DNA from: Nitrosomonas sp.
GTDB taxonomy: Bacteria; Pseudomonadota; Gammaproteobacteria; Burkholderiales; Nitrosomonadaceae
Direction: 5' to 3'
Assembly (NCBI GenBank): GCA_017984435.1
Contig: JAGNZK010000011.1
Location: 1-64,000 of the forward strand
Length of the DNA: 64,000 bases
Both the position numbers and the translations under genes were made by a program. The notes beneath the pieces were generated by a model, which saw only the letters and a list, made by a program, of their open reading frames with translations, did not search any database and was not told the DNA's origin. Below, in pieces: positions 53,619 to 61,947 of the stretch (positions within the stretch are counted from its first letter, which is position 1; every line of letters starts with the position of its first letter).

Positions 53619-56600
53619 TCATGCCCGCACACTCTCCCACAGTTTCTGTAAGCGTTTAACCGATACCGGCTGCGGCGTCTTTAACTCCTGCGCAAATAAT
53701 GAAACGCGCAATTCCTCGATCTGCCAGCGGAATTCATCCAAATTCTCATCCATCAGCCCGATTTTCCGGTGCTTTTCCAAACGTTGCAAATAGTGTTGCC
53801 AGAGCGCATTGACCTCCAGGCTATTGCTTTCATCGCGTCCAGGATTGTTCGAGAATTTTTCCAGGCGTAGCGACATGCCTTTCACATAACGCGGAATTTG
53901 CTGTAGCCTTTGCCAAGCGATTTGACTGAGAAAGCTGGGATAAATGAGGTTCTCAAGTTGATTGCTGACTTCATGCTTTACCCTGTCGACACGAAATGTT
54001 GCTAATCGCCCCATCAGGATTTGATATTCGCTGCCTATCTGCTGCAGCAAACCGGCCAACGCTGTGGCGACTTCCGGCAGGCGACTTTTAGCCCGCTGAC
54101 TCTGCGCAACAAACTCGGACTCGCTGCGTGGTAAAGGATCATTCGCCAACAATGCACGATCGATAATAGCATTCAGCATATCTTGTTTCAGATCGCCCGG
54201 ATTGATTCGGGTTGTCAGTTGCATGGTCGCTTGTTTGAGTCCCGGCAAATTCTTTTCCAATTGCTTGAGTTGTTCTTTCAACATCAAACACAATAATCGT
54301 CTGACACCCAGACGCATCGCATTATCAGCCCCTGCGGGCGTATCGAATAAGCGAATTGCGACATTGTCGGTTTGGTCAATCAATGCGGGATAGCCCGTCA
54401 GTTGTTGATCGTTGCGCTTGAAAGTCACTGCAACGGGCAAATCACCAAAGTCCCATTGGGTGATTTGATCTCGTTCAATGCCGATTCTCTCACTCGCGGC
54501 ATCGCGTTTTACAAAGGTCATTTGCGCAGCCTTACCCAGTTGAATCTGCAATTCAGACAAATCACGGCTCATCGCCAGTTCCTGCCCGGCATCATCGACG
54601 ATTTGAATGTTCATGCGCAGATGAATCGGCATGTCTTGGATGTTCCAAGTTTCCGGTGCAACCGACAACGTGGTTTTTCGTAAAATGAATTGCGCCAGAG
54701 CATCTTGTAATGACACTGGCTGCAAAGTGCTCGCTTGCTGTTCCAGAAACGCTGTGACCGATTCCGGCAATGGCACCAGCATGCGACGAATCTGCTTGGG
54801 AAGCGCCTTCAAATACCAGGTAACTTTGTCGCGAATCAGGCCGGGCACCAGATAATCCAACTGCCTGGTATCCAGCCGATTGAGTAATGGCAATGGCACG
54901 CACACGGTCACGCCGTCCAACGCGTGGCCGGGATCAAAGCGGTAAGTCAACGGCAATACGCTGCCATCCGGCAATGTCATGGTTTCCGGAAACTGCACTT
55001 CATTAATATGACCGGCCGCATGACGCATCAGCAATTCACGATTCAGATACAGCAATCGTGCATCTTGTTGCTCGGCCTGTTTGCGCCATTTTTCAAATCC
55101 CGCGCCGTTGGTTATATTTGCCGGAATGATGGCATCGTAGAAAGCGAAAATTTCCTGCTCGTCAACCAATACATCCTGCCGCCGCGCTTTATGCTCCAAT
55201 TCTTCGATTTCATGAATCAACGCCTGGTTATGCGCAAAAAAAGGCGCTTGCGTCACATACTCGCCCGCCACCAGCGCCGAACGGATGAAAATCTCACGGG
55301 ATTCCTTGGGATTGATCGAACCGTAGTGAACTGGCCGTTTCGCAACAATGGCAAGGCCATACAACGTCACGCGCTCGTAAACCATCACTTGCGCCTGCTT
55401 CTTCTCCCAATGCGGATCGAAATAGTGTTTCTTGCACAAATTACCGGCGATCCGCTCCAGCCATTGCGGTTCAATTTTGGCGGCACAGCGCGCATACAGC
55501 TTGCTGGTTTCGACCAATTCGGCGGCCACAACCCATTTCACTTTGCCTTTCTTCAATACCGAACCGGGAAAAATGGCGAACTTGATACCGCGGGCGCCCA
55601 GATATTCCCCTTCCTTCTCGGTCTTGAACCCGATATTACCGAGCAATCCGGGTAACAAAGCACGATGGATTTCATCGTAACTCGCCGGTGTTTCATTCGG
55701 TTTGAAACCCAGCTCAGTCATCAGCACATGTAACTGTCCGTGAATCTCACGCCATTCGCGCAAGCGGCGGTACGACAGAAAATGCTCGCGGCACTGCGCC
55801 ATCAGTTTTTTGCCGGATTTTTTGTGTTTCAGCAGATCGTCAAAGAAATCCCATAATTTCAAATACGCCAGGAAATCCGAGCGTTCATCCTGGAAACGCC
55901 GGTGCGCATTATCGGCAGCCGCTTGCTGATCAAATGGGCGATCACGTGGATCTTGCAAACTCAACGCGGAAGCGATAATTAATATCTCATGTAAGCAATT
56001 TTCTTGTTTTGCCGCCAGAATCATGCGGGCAATCTTGGGGTCAATGGGAAATTTAGCTAGGCGCCAGCCAATATCAGTCAAATTGCGACTATCGTCGACC
56101 GCGCCAAGCTCCGCCAGCAACTGATAACCATCGGCGATCATGCGCGGCGATGGCGGCTCCAGAAACGAAAAGCTTTCCACATCGCCGATTTTCAGCGACT
56201 TCATGCGCAAAATCACCGCCGCCAGCGAAGAACGCAGAATCTCCGGATCGGTAAATTCCGCGCGCCCTTGATAATCCTGCTCTGAATACAAACGGATACA
56301 CACGCCATCGGCCACCCGGCCACAACGCCCGGCACGCTGATTGGCCGACGCCTGCGAGATTTTCTCCACCAGCAATTGTTCGACCTTATTGCGGTAACTA
56401 TAGCGATTGATGCGCGCCAGTCCGGTATCGATCACATAATGAATCCCCGGCACGGTCAGCGATGTTTCCGCCACGTTGGTCGCCAACACGATGCGGCGCG
56501 CGCCGTCCGGTTGAAAAACCCGCTCCTGTTCGGCCACCGACAAGCGGGCGAACAACGGCAAGATTTCGATATTCGAATGAAAACGGTGAAACGAATGCTT

Positions 56601-57380
56601 GCGCAGCGTTTCGGCGGTCTCGCGGATTTCGCGCTCACCCGGCAGAAACACCAGAATATCGCCCGAACCCAGCGCCATCAACTCATCGACCGCATGGATA
56701 ATGGCGCGCTGCAAATCGCCGTCGCTGTCGTCGTCCTCATCGGCCAACGGCGAACGGTAATGGATCTCGACCGGATACAATCGCCCGCTGACCTCGATCA
56801 CCGGGGCATCGTTAAAATGCCGGGAAAAACGCTGCGCGTCGATGGTCGCCGACGTCACGATCACTTTCAAATCCGGCCGTTTTGGCAGCAATTGCTTGAG
56901 GTAACCGAGCAGAAAATCGATATTCAAACTGCGCTCGTGCGCTTCGTCGATGATCAGCGTATCGTACGCCTGCAACAGCGGATCGCCCTGCGTCTCGGCC
57001 AGTAAAATACCATCAGTCATCAGCTTGATGTAACTATCCGCACTGACCTTATCGGTGAATCGCACCTTATAACCGACCGCCTGCCCCAACGGACTGTTCA
57101 ATTCCACTGCAATCCGCCCCGCCACCGTCCGCGCCGCAATCCGCCGCGGCTGCGTATGGCCGATCAGCCCGTGCACACCGCGCTTCAGCTCCAGACAGAT
57201 TTTTGGGATTTGCGTGGTTTTACCGGAACCGGTCTCCCCGCAAATGATCACCACCTGATGATTCTCAATCGCTTGCTTGATTTCTTCACGGCGCAGATTG
57301 ACCGGCAGGTCTTCCGCATATGTTGGGCGGGGAAGATGGGCAAGCCGTCTTGTAATGATGTCGGGAGATAATTTTTTCAT
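53619..57380 (-). CDS. hrpA: ATP-dependent RNA helicase HrpA
   Basis: 1253 residues, the usual size for HrpA. The DEAH-box helicase motifs run in order: GETGSGKTTQIPKICLEL (Walker A near residue 46), IGHTQPRRIAARTV, IIDEAHERSLNIDFLLGYL, VTSATIDAQRF and ANQRAGRCGRVADGVCIRLY. The long C-terminal half holds the HrpA-specific region (NGAGFEKWRKQAEQ, FDPGHALDGVTVCVPLPLLN). It unwinds structured mRNA and helps rescue stalled ribosomes in E. coli. No ribosome binding site is obvious before the ATG. Confidence 0.96.
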   Translation of the reverse strand: MKKLSPDIITRRLAHLPRPTYAEDLPVNLRREEIKQAIENHQVVIICGETGSGKTTQIPKICLELKRGVHGLIGHTQPRRIAARTVAGRIAVELNSPLGQAVGYKVRFTDKVSADSYIKLMTDGILLAETQGDPLLQAYDTLIIDEAHERSLNIDFLLGYLKQLLPKRPDLKVIVTSATIDAQRFSRHFNDAPVIEVSGRLYPVEIHYRSPLADEDDDSDGDLQRAIIHAVDELMALGSGDILVFLPGEREIRETAETLRKHSFHRFHSNIEILPLFARLSVAEQERVFQPDGARRIVLATNVAETSLTVPGIHYVIDTGLARINRYSYRNKVEQLLVEKISQASANQRAGRCGRVADGVCIRLYSEQDYQGRAEFTDPEILRSSLAAVILRMKSLKIGDVESFSFLEPPSPRMIADGYQLLAELGAVDDSRNLTDIGWRLAKFPIDPKIARMILAAKQENCLHEILIIASALSLQDPRDRPFDQQAAADNAHRRFQDERSDFLAYLKLWDFFDDLLKHKKSGKKLMAQCREHFLSYRRLREWREIHGQLHVLMTELGFKPNETPASYDEIHRALLPGLLGNIGFKTEKEGEYLGARGIKFAIFPGSVLKKGKVKWVVAAELVETSKLYARCAAKIEPQWLERIAGNLCKKHYFDPHWEKKQAQVMVYERVTLYGLAIVAKRPVHYGSINPKESREIFIRSALVAGEYVTQAPFFAHNQALIHEIEELEHKARRQDVLVDEQEIFAFYDAIIPANITNGAGFEKWRKQAEQQDARLLYLNRELLMRHAAGHINEVQFPETMTLPDGSVLPLTYRFDPGHALDGVTVCVPLPLLNRLDTRQLDYLVPGLIRDKVTWYLKALPKQIRRMLVPLPESVTAFLEQQASTLQPVSLQDALAQFILRKTTLSVAPETWNIQDMPIHLRMNIQIVDDAGQELAMSRDLSELQIQLGKAAQMTFVKRDAASERIGIERDQITQWDFGDLPVAVTFKRNDQQLTGYPALIDQTDNVAIRLFDTPAGADNAMRLGVRRLLCLMLKEQLKQLEKNLPGLKQATMQLTTRINPGDLKQDMLNAIIDRALLANDPLPRSESEFVAQSQRAKSRLPEVATALAGLLQQIGSEYQILMGRLATFRVDRVKHEVSNQLENLIYPSFLSQIAWQRLQQIPRYVKGMSLRLEKFSNNPGRDESNSLEVNALWQHYLQRLEKHRKIGLMDENLDEFRWQIEELRVSLFAQELKTPQPVSVKRLQKLWESVRA

Positions 57381-57446
57381 AGAAATATTAGTTGTATGCC
57401 GATGCCGGATCGTAAGCGATTTATACTTCTTTGGCTTGCCCGATCG

Positions 57447-58217
57447 CTACAAGGTCTTGAAAAAATAGTTGGTGCTGCGCCCGCCACTGGCATCTTTCAC
57501 CAGCACACCCCGTTCAACAAGATCAAGAATATCCCGTAGCGCCGTGTCCTGCGAGCATTGGGTGATCTTTGCCCATTTTGACGAGGTCAGCTTGCCTTCA
57601 AACCCATCCAATACTTTATTCAGCATCAGGCGCTGACGGTCATTGAACGGCACATCCTTATGCATCTGCCAGAACTGTGCTTTATGGAGCACGTCACTTA
57701 GCGTTTCTGCTGTGCTGCTGATTGCGCGATCCAGGCAATTTAAGAACCATTCCAGCCACGACGTAATATCGAGGCCACCTTTTTGGGTCTTCTCCAGCAT
57801 ATCGTAATACATTCTTCGTTCCTGCCGGATTTGTGCCGAGAAGCTGTAAAAGCGTTGTGGGCTTTGCTCAGACTTTGCCAACGCCATATCGGCAATTGCA
57901 CGCGCAATGCGCCCGTTGCCATCCTCAAACGGATGCAGTGTGACAAACCACAGATGACCAATACCAGCTTTGAGAACAGCATCGATATCGTTCTTGCCAT
58001 TGAACCACTGCAAAAACAGATCGATTTCATTGCTGAGATGTTTGGCGGCAGGCGCCTCAAAATGCACCCGTTCTCTTCCAATCGCGCCAGACACCACCTG
58101 CATCGGTCCGTTTGCATCATCACGCCAATGCGAACATGAGATCAGGTCGCGAATTGAGAATATAGCCAATAAACCTGACACCTTTTTGCCTATGATGCAG
58201 GTGAACGATAAACACAT
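57447..58217 (-). CDS. N-terminally truncated Fic protein, second copy
   Basis: 256 residues. From HWRDDANGPMQVVSGAIG onward it is nearly identical to the full Fic gene at 60494, base for base without gaps over 57471–58131. The Fic motif HPFEDGNGRIAR and the C-terminal winged-helix-like region (LTSSKWAKITQCSQDTALRD) are kept. The N-terminal DUF4172-type part and the inhibitory SSEIEG motif are absent; 28 unrelated residues replace them. Its ATG lies three bases after the stop of the diguanylate cyclase gene, so translation could be coupled. No ribosome binding site is visible. It may be an active, less restrained AMP transferase or a dead relic. Confidence 0.7.
   Translation of the reverse strand: MCLSFTCIIGKKVSGLLAIFSIRDLISCSHWRDDANGPMQVVSGAIGRERVHFEAPAAKHLSNEIDLFLQWFNGKNDIDAVLKAGIGHLWFVTLHPFEDGNGRIARAIADMALAKSEQSPQRFYSFSAQIRQERRMYYDMLEKTQKGGLDITSWLEWFLNCLDRAISSTAETLSDVLHKAQFWQMHKDVPFNDRQRLMLNKVLDGFEGKLTSSKWAKITQCSQDTALRDILDLVERGVLVKDASGGRSTNYFFKTL
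57471..58131 (-). repeat. 661-bp direct repeat, copy 1 (Fic 3' part)
   Basis: This segment is collinear, without insertions or deletions, with 60536–61196. The two copies flank the diguanylate cyclase gene in the same orientation. The similarity ends sharply at CAATGC/GAAC, where the full copy continues with CCAACC. The sharp edge marks a duplication or recombination boundary. Confidence 0.9.
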
Positions 58218-58220
58218 AGC

Positions 58221-60032
58221 CTAAATTACCGGTGATTCCAAGGCTTCAATGACGGCGACCTGATTCTTGCCCTGTTTTCTTGCCAGAAATACAGCGTAAT
58301 CCGCGCGATCCAGAGCCTGCTCGCGACTTTCATTGGTCAAGTATTGCGTGACACCTGCGCTAAAGGTGATCAGCAGGCGATTGTTGTTGTTCATGAAGAA
58401 ACGTTTCGTCAGTTCGCGCTGCAATCGCCGCATCATATCGGCAGCGGTATTGAGCAGGGTGTCGGGCAGCAGAATAAGAAATTCTTCTGAGCCGTACCGG
58501 ATCACGCTGTCACCCTGTCTGATCACGGTTTTGATGATCTGCACCAAATGCGTCAGCGTGTCATCGCTGGCCTGGCTGCCGAGTTGGGAGCTGAGCTCGC
58601 TCAAATTATCCACATCGAGCAATACCAGACACAATGGTTTGCCACTTTGCATCATTTGCTCTTGTTCTTCACTGAAAGTCTCGACCAGCGCACGATGGCT
58701 CAGAGCTCCGGTCAGCCGGTCGTCACGCGTTTGTTCGCTGACTTGCCGCAAGTGGTGCCGCAATTCATCCACGCGCTGTTGCGTTGCATCCGCCTGTTGC
58801 CTTGTTTTGATCAATTCATCGCGGGTGCGCAGCATGTCGAGCTGCATGTGCCGGGTGTCTTCCATCAGTTTTTCCAATATCAACTTGAGATCAATGGCCT
58901 GGTTGGTCTGCTTGACGCGCTCGGTGTAATGATCAATTTTTTGCTGAAACTCGCCGGTGGCTTCCGTCACGATTCCCAAACGCTCGAGAAACAGCGAAAT
59001 CATGTCCTTCAGCGTTTGCTGTGCTTCGGCAAGCGTATGCTGCAATAAATCCTGTTGGTAAACGAGTTCTTTCAGAATCGATTCCGCGTCGTAAATACGG
59101 TGCAGTACCGGGGGATTCTTGAGATTTTCCCGAATCAGTTCGAGTTGATGCGATACCCAGGGATCCAGATCCGGTGGCAGTGACGCATATTCGATAAACA
59201 GATTGAGCATATTCAGCAGCCCATCGATCAATCGTTGTTCCTGATCGACCCGCAAGGCCATGTGAATCCAGCATTGCCGAATTCGTTTTTCCAGCCAGTC
59301 GATGTTTTCTGGCTGATCTACGGCTTCGATTCCTTGGATGATGAATTCGATTTCCGTGATCCAGTGCTGATGCGTGGCAAGACGGGGAACCAATCCGTCG
59401 CGCAAGGTGGAAATGAGGAGTACTTTCCATTGTCGCCAGAATGCTATTGCTAGCGAGTGGTCTTCAATGACCTCCAGTTCGGTGCCGGCTGCATCAGCAT
59501 GACCATTTACAGTTACAGGCACCAGGCTGACAGGGGTTTCATCCTGCCAACGCTTAACCAAGGCATGAATTTCGTTATTCAATCGTTCGGGATGGTTTGC
59601 TAACGACTTGACGGCATCTGTCAGTTGTTCGCGCCGGATCGAGTCGCTACCGGATTGTGTTCGCGTATCCCACAGCATCAGCAGCAATTCACCCCACGGC
59701 TGCTCCAAACGACGATCAAGCGTGCCTTGCGACAGGATTAACTGACCCAGCGATTGCGCAACCGCCGTCCAGTTCTGATCGCTTGCCGCCAAATTGATAT
59801 CGACGACATGGCGACTTGCTTCCTGGGGCAAATCGAGGTTGTGTAACGTGGTTACTAACTTATTCGCCAGCGCGAGCGAAGCGTGATGCTCTGGTGGCTT
59901 GGCGCCGGCAATCTGATAATAAATCGATTCATACTGATCCGGTGTGGGGGCAATTCGCTGGGTAGCCAAACGTTTTAATGTTTCCCTGGCAATCCATATC
60001 GGGTTTTTGGTTTCAGGTCGATTGGCATCCAT
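58221..60032 (-). CDS. Diguanylate cyclase (GGDEF domain)
   Basis: 603 residues from the ATG at 60032 (a TTG at 60047 is also in frame). The N-terminal ~430 residues are helical, without a recognised sensor domain or membrane span; a coiled coil occurs before the catalytic part (KTRQQADATQQRVDELRHHL). The C-terminal GGDEF domain begins DDRLTGALSHRALVETF and has the active-site loop RYGSEEFLILLPD; the inhibitory I-site RQGD lies five residues before GSEEF. Serine replaces the second glycine, a variant found in some cyclases. It probably makes cyclic di-GMP in the cytoplasm. The Fic-like gene follows within four bases. Confidence 0.9.
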   Translation of the reverse strand: MDANRPETKNPIWIARETLKRLATQRIAPTPDQYESIYYQIAGAKPPEHHASLALANKLVTTLHNLDLPQEASRHVVDINLAASDQNWTAVAQSLGQLILSQGTLDRRLEQPWGELLLMLWDTRTQSGSDSIRREQLTDAVKSLANHPERLNNEIHALVKRWQDETPVSLVPVTVNGHADAAGTELEVIEDHSLAIAFWRQWKVLLISTLRDGLVPRLATHQHWITEIEFIIQGIEAVDQPENIDWLEKRIRQCWIHMALRVDQEQRLIDGLLNMLNLFIEYASLPPDLDPWVSHQLELIRENLKNPPVLHRIYDAESILKELVYQQDLLQHTLAEAQQTLKDMISLFLERLGIVTEATGEFQQKIDHYTERVKQTNQAIDLKLILEKLMEDTRHMQLDMLRTRDELIKTRQQADATQQRVDELRHHLRQVSEQTRDDRLTGALSHRALVETFSEEQEQMMQSGKPLCLVLLDVDNLSELSSQLGSQASDDTLTHLVQIIKTVIRQGDSVIRYGSEEFLILLPDTLLNTAADMMRRLQRELTKRFFMNNNNRLLITFSAGVTQYLTNESREQALDRADYAVFLARKQGKNQVAVIEALESPVI

Positions 60033-60047
60033 ATCGCGTCTTATCAA

Positions 60048-60493
60048 ATTTCATGATGGTATCAAGCGACCATTCTGGACCATGAATCGAATTGCAAAAA
60101 TCCGCAGCTTGCACCCATGCGGAAGGTGAGCGCAGACTGTATGCTATCAATACACCACAAGGAATCATAGTGTTATAGCACAGGAAATGGAATCAGGTTG
60201 CGAATCAAGAGAATGAGTGTATACATGTAGATCATGTCAAGACCACTCCGTTTAGAATCTCGGGATGCGCTTTATCGCATCTCATCACGTGAGGATCACC
60301 GTAAAGCCATTTTTGAAGATGGTGACAACCGATTAAGGCTTTTAGAAAAGAGCAGTTGCGTTGATTATAACTGGCTGGCGTCATGACTACCTACTGTTTT
60401 TGTGAATGGGAATTTAGCGATAACATAATTATCCGAATGATATTGGTTCATCAATTACGGTATGTCCGTTTGATTTACTCATCGACGCTAACT
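60048..60493. other. Intergenic region with a RAYT relic
   Basis: 446 bp between the intact fic gene and the diguanylate cyclase gene, both on the minus strand. It contains a plus-strand RAYT fragment at 60234–60386 and otherwise no coding frame with support. The promoter of the cyclase should lie in its left part. Confidence 0.5.
60234..60386 (+). pseudogene. RAYT (REP-associated tyrosine transposase) N-terminal remnant
   Basis: A 50-codon frame reads MSRPLRLESRDALYRIS then SREDHRKAIFEDGDNRLRLL and ...DYNWLAS before a stop. RAYT/Y1-type transposases typically open MSRPLRIEFPGALYHVTSRG and then have R-x-x-IFED-D-x-R-x-x-FL, so the match is clear. A shifted frame continues WRHDYLLFL, like WRCHAYCLM, then stops. 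The HUH (HxH) motif and catalytic tyrosine are missing. It is a decayed copy of a domesticated single-strand transposase family. Confidence 0.7.
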
Positions 60494-61618
60494 TTACTGG
60501 CTCCCAACTTCCAGTAAGGTTTTGAGAGAATAGCCGGTGCTGCGCCCGCCACTGGCATCTTTCACCAGCACACCCCGTTCGACAAGATCGTGAATATCCC
60601 GCAGCGCTGTGTCCTGCGAACATTGGGCGAGCTTTGCCCATTTTGACGAGGTCAGCTTGCCTTCAAACCCATCCAGTGCTTTGTTCAACATCAAGCGCTG
60701 ACGATCATTGAACGGCACATCCTTATGCACCTGCCAAAACTGCGCTTTATGGAGCACGCCACTCAGCGTTTCTTCCGTGCTGCTGATTGCGCGATCCAGA
60801 CAATTTAAGAACCACTCCAGCCACGACGTAATATCGAGGCCACCTTTTTGGGTCTTTTCCAGCATATCGTAATACATTTTTCGTTCCTGCCGGATTTGTG
60901 CCGAGAAGCTGTAGAAACGTTGCGAGCTTTGCTCGGATCGCGCTAATGCCATATCGGCAATCGCACGCGCAATGCGCCCGTTGCCATCCTCAAACGGATG
61001 CAGCGTGACAAACCACAGATGAGCAATACCCGCCTTGAGAACAGCATCGGTATCGTTCTTGCCATTGAACCACTGCAAAAACAGATCGATTTCATTGTGG
61101 AGGCGTTTGGCGGCAGGCGCATCAAAATGCACCCGCTCTTTCCCAATCGCGCCGGACACCACCTGCATCGGTCCGTTTGCATCATCACGCCAATGCCCAA
61201 CCGTGATCTTATGCATACCGCTATAACCGGTTGGAAACAAGGCCGCCTGCCACCCAAACAGGCGATCCGCGCTCAATGGTTGCGCATAATTTTGCGTGGC
61301 ATCCAGCATCATATCGACAATGCCCTCAACATGGCGGTCTGCGGATACTAACGCACCAATGTCCAATCCCAGCCGTCGAGCAATCGAGGAACGAACCTGA
61401 TCACGATCCAGAATTTCCCCTTCAATCTCGGAAGATTTCAACACATCAAGCGTCAGGTTTTGCAACGTGGCTTCCGCCGTTAAGGGAAATCCCAAAGCCT
61501 CCATCCGGCCAATCAACCGCCCCTGCCGGTGACGCACAGACGCCAGTAGCCCGGACAATTTCTCATGATCCCAACTGAAATCAGGCCAGTCAGGTAGTTC
61601 ATGGATATAACGCTTCAT
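60494..61618 (-). CDS. Fic family AMP-transferase-like protein, class II type
   Basis: 374 residues from the ATG at 61618, with GAGG nearby; a GTG three codons earlier is also in frame. An N-terminal DUF4172-like domain (YIHELPDWPDFSWDHEKLSG) is followed by the inhibitory motif SSEIEG in LKSSEIEGEILDRDQVRS, which fits the [ST]xxxE[GN] rule. The flap region HWRDDANGPMQVVSG comes next, then the catalytic HPFEDGNGRIAR. The C-terminus looks like a winged helix (LTSSKWAKLAQCSQDTALRD ... VERGVLVKD). Fic enzymes of this type transfer AMP to target proteins. Three ATGCGGA motifs lie upstream. Confidence 0.93.
   Translation of the reverse strand: MKRYIHELPDWPDFSWDHEKLSGLLASVRHRQGRLIGRMEALGFPLTAEATLQNLTLDVLKSSEIEGEILDRDQVRSSIARRLGLDIGALVSADRHVEGIVDMMLDATQNYAQPLSADRLFGWQAALFPTGYSGMHKITVGHWRDDANGPMQVVSGAIGKERVHFDAPAAKRLHNEIDLFLQWFNGKNDTDAVLKAGIAHLWFVTLHPFEDGNGRIARAIADMALARSEQSSQRFYSFSAQIRQERKMYYDMLEKTQKGGLDITSWLEWFLNCLDRAISSTEETLSGVLHKAQFWQVHKDVPFNDRQRLMLNKALDGFEGKLTSSKWAKLAQCSQDTALRDIHDLVERGVLVKDASGGRSTGYSLKTLLEVGSQ
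60536..61196 (-). repeat. 661-bp direct repeat, copy 2 (inside the intact fic gene)
   Basis: Copy of the segment at 57471–58131, ungapped. It spans the flap, catalytic motif and C-terminal domain of the intact fic gene. The region between the copies holds the diguanylate cyclase gene and the RAYT relic. Confidence 0.9.
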
Positions 61619-61947
61619 TCTACGCACCTCATGCGGAGATTATGCGCTTTTTTCTCCGCATTCAGCAAGGGCAATCACCGCAGATCATGCGGACTTTATG
61701 ATGACTGTGGTGCTTTAGTTGGATTTGCTACCGAAGGGGAAAGAACCCGTTAATTCCGATTCTTTCTAATAAACTGATGTGGTCCAATAGACCCGTTACT
61801 TGACCAGGTCATATCCGTCACTCAAATAACCTACTACGATATATAGTCAATTTTCTAATAATCTGAATTCAGCTTGGGTCGTCATTAAAGCTAGTAGCAT
61901 TAATGTGACAAGTATTAGCAGATTACTATGAAATACAGTGTAGTCAC
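61619..61947. other. Intergenic region upstream of fic
   Basis: 329 bp between the fic start and the end of the DUF2130 gene, both on the minus strand. The right part (from 61631) holds the ATGCGGA motifs. The rest (61,700–61,947) is AT-rich with no gene, palindrome or RNA feature that I can support. Confidence 0.45.
61631..61693. promoter_or_regulatory. Candidate fic operator (three ATGCGGA motifs)
   Basis: ATGCGGA occurs at 61631–61637 (plus), 61655–61661 (minus) and 61687–61693 (plus). The first two form an 8-bp perfect inverted repeat (61632–61639 and 61653–61660) with a 13-nt gap. The set starts 13 bp upstream of the fic start codon, overlapping where its promoter should be. Autoregulation by the winged-helix-like Fic C-terminus is a possible reading. 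Confidence 0.5.

Follow-up and report, generated by a model that had tools for sequence, protein, structure and literature searches.

Does the second of two neighbouring Fic genes in a Nitrosomonas genome encode an enzyme released from its inhibitory motif, or is it a leftover of duplication? The two genes lie in the window, by which we mean the whole stretch of 64,000 nucleotides analysed here (contig JAGNZK010000011.1). A preliminary description had read them as a duplicated Fic gene, one copy of which had lost its inhibitor and was expected to be toxic or strongly regulated. We find that the duplication and the loss of the inhibitory motif are real and that they do not demonstrate selection for an unbraked enzyme. 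Probably, the short copy is what remains of a second fic gene that was truncated at its 5' end in the recent past.

An intact class II Fic protein and a short second copy

The intact fic gene (60494..61618, minus strand) encodes 374 residues. It starts with an ATG at 61618 (a GTG is found 9 bases further upstream), and its stop codon ends at 60494. Pfam recognizes a DUF4172 domain (residues 4–85) and a Fic domain (residues 114–225, whole model); a C-terminal winged-helix-like part was assigned by comparison with the solved relative 8cil. Both motifs expected from the preliminary description were located: the inhibitory motif SSEIEG (61418..61435, minus strand; residues 62–67) and the catalytic motif HPFEDGNGRIAR (60965..61000, minus strand; residues 207–218). 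The former has the class II form (S/T)xxxE(G/N) and precedes the Fic core, and the latter, within the Fic domain, agrees with HPFx(D/E)GNGRxxR. In all 95 aligned relatives, the inhibitory motif starts with Ser or Thr and keeps its I, E and G. CbFic2 (PDB 8cil), a DUF4172 class II Fic protein whose chain 8cil_A aligns over residues 2–366 (362 bits), has the same domain order, the inhibitory motif ahead of the Fic motif and a wHTH-like C-terminus. The PADLOC model for SoFic also matches (residues 7–371, E = 1.8e-41), but the NCBIfam equivalog for SoFic (NF046030) gave 43.8 bits, far under its cut-off of 550.

The short open reading frame (57447..58217, minus strand; 256 residues) starts with an ATG at 58217 and has its stop codon ending at 57447. 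Its residues 30–256 are homologous to residues 142–368 of the intact protein. The homology forms an ungapped block of 681 bases (57451..58131, minus strand), 92% identical to the intact copy (BLASTN, 625 of 681 bases, E = 0.0), slightly longer than the 661 bp first given. It comprises the last 227 codons from the flap (HWRDDANGPMQVVSG) onward and includes the catalytic motif HPFEDGNGRIAR (57900..57935, minus strand; residues 95–106). The first 29 residues, MCLSFTCIIGKKVSGLLAIFSIRDLISCS, are not Fic-like and contain no inhibitory motif, which leaves this copy outside class II. The short copy therefore begins at the flap, keeps the catalytic motif and lacks the inhibitor, just as had been described; its open frame and few amino acid changes (19 of 227 residues differ) are likewise as stated. 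That description mentioned neither the foreign N-terminal residues nor the 608-residue GGDEF protein encoded between the copies. The Pfam Fic match of the short copy begins only at model position 24 of 93 and helices are missing, so that the complete Fic fold of a class I Fic toxin was not found. Unlike CbFic2, the short copy has no DUF4172 domain, no inhibitory motif and none of the first Fic-domain helices. Plasmids and phages offered no closer source: the best plasmid match to the short protein was 69.9% identical, and for the intact protein none of the 11 phage matches reached 60%.

AlphaFold models of both proteins, computed with the same 34 homologues, had a mean pLDDT of 90.2 for the intact and 78.1 for the short protein. 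Values for the short protein were 65–72 in the flap block (intact, 82–90) and 68–75 in the active-site block (intact, 95–97). The new N-terminus reached 42–62 and the last 16 residues 65–66, and the C-terminal helices kept 82–94. The predicted helices 95–109 and 117–127 of the intact protein have no counterpart in the short one. According to the models, the truncation would have removed two core Fic helices along with the inhibitory motif, and this loss would explain the lower confidence in flap and active site; the drop is indicative only, as a homologue-based model proves no stability. The short protein as modelled can still be superposed on 8cil_A, with a TM of 0.81 by query length.

Mobile-element debris at the junctions

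On the minus strand, the order is intact fic (61618→60494), the GGDEF (diguanylate cyclase) gene (60047→58221; feature 58221..60047) and the short reading frame (58217→57447). At its 5' edge (58131), the Fic homology of the short copy abuts the end of a dispersed repeat (58135–58173) with a gap of 3 bases. Fic homology is broken at this recombination edge, and the start region and upstream DNA are lost. Matches to the repeat recur in several relatives within the genus (G022, G016, G020, G008 and others), and several of them share flanking sequence and a GACCTG-CCCC-like end; for the own genome, no strong second copy was among the matches that this search listed. After the repeat in one locus (L159) comes the C-terminal part of a transposase-like protein, which shares 77% identity over 65 amino acids with an element reading frame on contig C61 of the own genome. 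Part of the C61 element resembles REP-associated tyrosine transposases (E = 1.5e-8; 34.6 bits against a cut-off of 80). A fragment of this kind of element is present between the GGDEF gene and intact fic (60180..60390, plus strand). It was identified by DNA similarity to the C61 element (75% over 217 bases), its 50-residue translation having no match in Pfam and NCBIfam. The whole gap between the two genes (60048–60493) is rich in debris and low in G+C (0.42). On contig C61 itself, two overlapping small reading frames of VapBC-like type adjoin the transposase element (L220, 2376–2959); the second opens with a PIN-like sequence, MAVLVDTSVWIDYF, recognized by eye.

Two fragments of a djlA-like gene mark the downstream ends of the copies. 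Fragment A (60429..60507, minus strand) directly follows intact fic, and fragment B (57409..57450, minus strand) directly follows the short copy and covers its stop codon. In the intact djlA-like gene of a relative, G106, the corresponding positions are 37 bases apart. The djlA similarity of fragment A may begin slightly later than aligned, because the end of intact fic resembles djlA and, by eye, the end of fic in G106. An hrpA-like helicase gene (53619..57380, minus strand) is located downstream of the short copy. In G106, a stretch of 5.3 kb contains, in this order, the djlA-like gene, fic and the beginning of hrpA, which starts 3.3 kb after fic; four other genomes (G013, G006, G019, G010) have a djlA-like gene upstream of hrpA and in the same orientation. 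The names are based on TerB and DnaJ domains (djlA) and on helicase and DUF3418 domains (hrpA). The own genome has an intact djlA-like gene on contig C28. Genome G016 carries two hrpA-like helicase genes, on contigs C74 and C19, which are 93% and 87% identical to that of the window (400-residue query). The three nearest orthologues of the GGDEF gene (G025, G013, G009) have other neighbours, with no fic in the stretches fetched (about 1.5 kb per side; the contig of G025 ends within the gene).

Upstream DNA and translation start

The 83 bases upstream of intact fic (61620..61702, minus strand) contain a strong Shine–Dalgarno-like site and are conserved, with 84% identity to G077 and related sequence in G081 and G106. 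This region is absent from the short copy. Shine–Dalgarno-like scores were –9.2 for intact fic and –3.1 for the short ATG against a background median of –1.7, although such scoring is not diagnostic, as the GGDEF, hrpA and DUF2130 genes also score weakly. An in-frame TTG at 58169 scores –6.4, which is fair and near the best 5% of the background. Since the short ATG begins 3 bases past the GGDEF stop codon, coupled translation with the GGDEF gene is possible.

Substitutions in the two copies

Between the copies, dN is 0.042 and dS 0.284 (dN/dS 0.146). Changes were assigned to branches using four relatives as outgroups (G077, G081, G106, G133); three of these (G077, G081, G106) were found as orthologues with 84–85% protein identity in a search of 126 family genomes. 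The short branch carries 33 changes (20 synonymous, 13 non-synonymous) and the intact branch 16 (10 and 6), eight (5 and 3) being unpolarized. The split between the two kinds of change does not differ between the branches (Fisher P = 1). Neutrality would give about two non-synonymous changes per synonymous one for this sequence, and a fully neutral short branch is rejected (P = 0.0009). With the ratio of the intact branch as background, neutral evolution over as much as about 0.5 of the short branch is compatible with the data (P = 0.09 at 0.5 and 0.047 at 0.6). When the same 57 changes were placed at random, the frame stayed free of stop codons in 9.6% of 2000 trials. In the tree, the two window copies are sisters with 100/100 support. 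Gene conversion between them was set aside, as the differences are spread across the whole block. Three of the 19 amino acid changes fall in the last seven codons, one of them at a residue that is Leu in 87 of 95 relatives. The short branch has roughly double the length of the intact one (33 versus 16 changes, P = 0.02), also for synonymous changes (20 versus 10), which could reflect relaxed constraint or different ancestry.

As the short branch is not fully neutral and resembles the intact branch, most of the divergence appears to have arisen while both copies were constrained and presumably full-length; the truncation of the short copy may be recent. The comparison of synonymous and non-synonymous counts that had been proposed as a check thus confirms that changes are few and the ratio low. 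It does not demonstrate that the truncated form is kept, because a recent truncation gives the same pattern. The earlier argument that an open frame with few changes speaks against neglect is not upheld: the short branch shows the pattern of the intact branch. As we read the counts, they fit recent truncation and selective retention alike, without separating them.

Truncated and duplicate Fic copies in other genomes

At E ≤ 1e-80, matches occur in 20 of 126 family genomes (the own genome counted), and none of these matches besides the window is a comparable truncated second copy; that in G073 starts at residue 25, but inside a frame of 424 residues. All 101 homologue loci matched fic, and none of them had a second near-copy, an absence which is incomplete, as both flanks reach at least 3 kb in 53 loci and 1.4 kb in 77. 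More than one Fic piece occurs in two of the 101 loci. One of these (L111) is a single gene in three pieces, and the other (L042, 4613–5701) has a distant second Fic gene of 25% identity near an intact DUF4172 fic. A comparable distant gene lies 3.5 kb away from fic in G077 (27% identity). The distant genes of L042 and G077 each have their own inhibitory and catalytic motifs; for the distant second Fic genes at L042 4613–5701 and L242 10331–11560, both of them close to an intact DUF4172 fic, the inhibitory motifs read STRIEG and SSQIEG. Locus L018 (G021, contig C8) contains a broken fic of the DUF4172 family in two pieces with stop codons.

At E ≤ 1e-30, a wider sample of the class gave matches in 66 of its 369 genomes, the own one counted. 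At least four truncated or decayed Fic copies lie within contigs, as counted from six short-looking places that were fetched, a subset of the rows. G466 stops in the front half; homology begins at residue 170 in G459, at 202 in G479 and at 238 in G470, which consequently has no catalytic motif. Two further candidates were discarded, G199 because it starts at a contig end and G438 because it is a divergent, gapped gene. Judged by these sequences, open 3' Fic frames that lack the front half are not rare, although identity is just about 40% for G466 and G459.

Origin of the short copy

Duplicate genes truncated at the 5' end by mobile elements are a general kind. Like them, the short copy has homology that is partial and stops at a repeat, N-terminal codons of foreign origin and debris around it. 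It differs from typical cases in its open frame and its change pattern of a constrained gene, and the truncation is therefore probably recent. We infer the following order of events. A lineage-specific second fic copy would have arisen, in tandem or acquired from a close relative, at the djlA–hrpA locus beside a decaying djlA; fic is also present at this locus in at least one relative (G106). In a later step, a segment with the GGDEF gene and transposon debris at its borders would have taken the place of the front half of one copy. The start of the short frame would be accidental, in repeat DNA and the 3' DNA of the GGDEF gene. The product most likely has neither dedicated expression nor a stable Fic fold, and loss of the inhibitory motif would for this reason be a by-product rather than a selected release of the brake. 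Against a remnant speak the stop-free frame, the dN/dS ratio and rejected neutrality, and the intact catalytic motif and flap; further points against it are the possible coupled translation, the TTG at 58169 and the persisting match to 8cil_A.

Several other explanations have to be weighed. A short protein which is made but non-catalytic, its C-terminal winged-helix part competing with the intact copy for DNA or partners, is unlikely, although model confidence in the C-terminal helices is close to that of the intact protein and the DNA upstream of intact fic is conserved. The closest relative of known structure is a DNA-binding protein with a C-terminal wHTH, and its activity is switched by DNA-induced dimerization (PMC10628234). 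As reported there, however, dimerization also uses a DUF4172 helix, which the short copy has lost, and the three changes in the last seven codons, including that at the conserved Leu, fit poorly with this role. Still less probable is the view closest to the preliminary description, that the short copy lacks a brake but works as a class I-like Fic enzyme, which the intact copy holds in check in trans. The low dN/dS ratio of the short copy would agree with this, as would its catalytic motif and flap, both of which are needed for Fic activity; changing the inhibitory glutamate relieves inhibition (PMC3667792). There is a precedent in Campylobacter fetus, where neighbouring Fic proteins differ in the same way: Fic1, bearing an inhibitory motif, binds and thereby neutralizes Fic2, which lacks one; Fic2, whose core motif is degenerate, is toxic in E. 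coli (PMC5651007). From what that report gives, Fic1 and Fic2 are apparently whole proteins (32 and 36 kDa), whereas the second copy in the window is a 5'-truncated near-copy behind a GGDEF gene, known from sequence, without DUF4172 and two core helices. Among the literature matches listed, no title or beginning of an abstract described a truncated near-copy of a class II Fic gene beside its parent. The reduced confidence of the active-site model and the loss of the conserved upstream region also argue against an unbraked enzyme, as does the lack of a second near-copy in the 101 loci (both flanks at least 3 kb in 53). The extra Fic genes near fic in relatives (L042, G077) bear their own inhibitory motif, and recent truncation accounts for the substitution pattern. 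A Fic–Fic toxin–antitoxin pair is thus a reading with a precedent, but an unlikely one. In such a pair, the inhibitory helix would come in trans from a separate antitoxin, for which the intact Fic was the candidate considered.

That assembly or binning joined two strains at a repeat to give this arrangement is very improbable. The edge of the short copy is indeed a dispersed repeat and the genome is in 85 contigs, but the listed contamination is 0.01, and djlA fragments A and B, which are neighbours in an intact gene, follow intact and short fic, respectively, so that both ends belong to one locus. Equally remote is the idea that the rearrangement placed an unbraked or DNA-binding Fic half behind the GGDEF gene and so created a new partner linked to c-di-GMP which intact Fic must restrain. 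The short copy is mostly ordinary: a leftover of duplication cut by a mobile element fits better than a deliberately unbraked enzyme.

If the short copy does work, the locus would exemplify a one-step route from a self-inhibited AMPylase to a two-gene toxin–antitoxin pair. More likely it is a caution, in that a low dN/dS ratio together with an open frame is not proof of function after a recent truncation.
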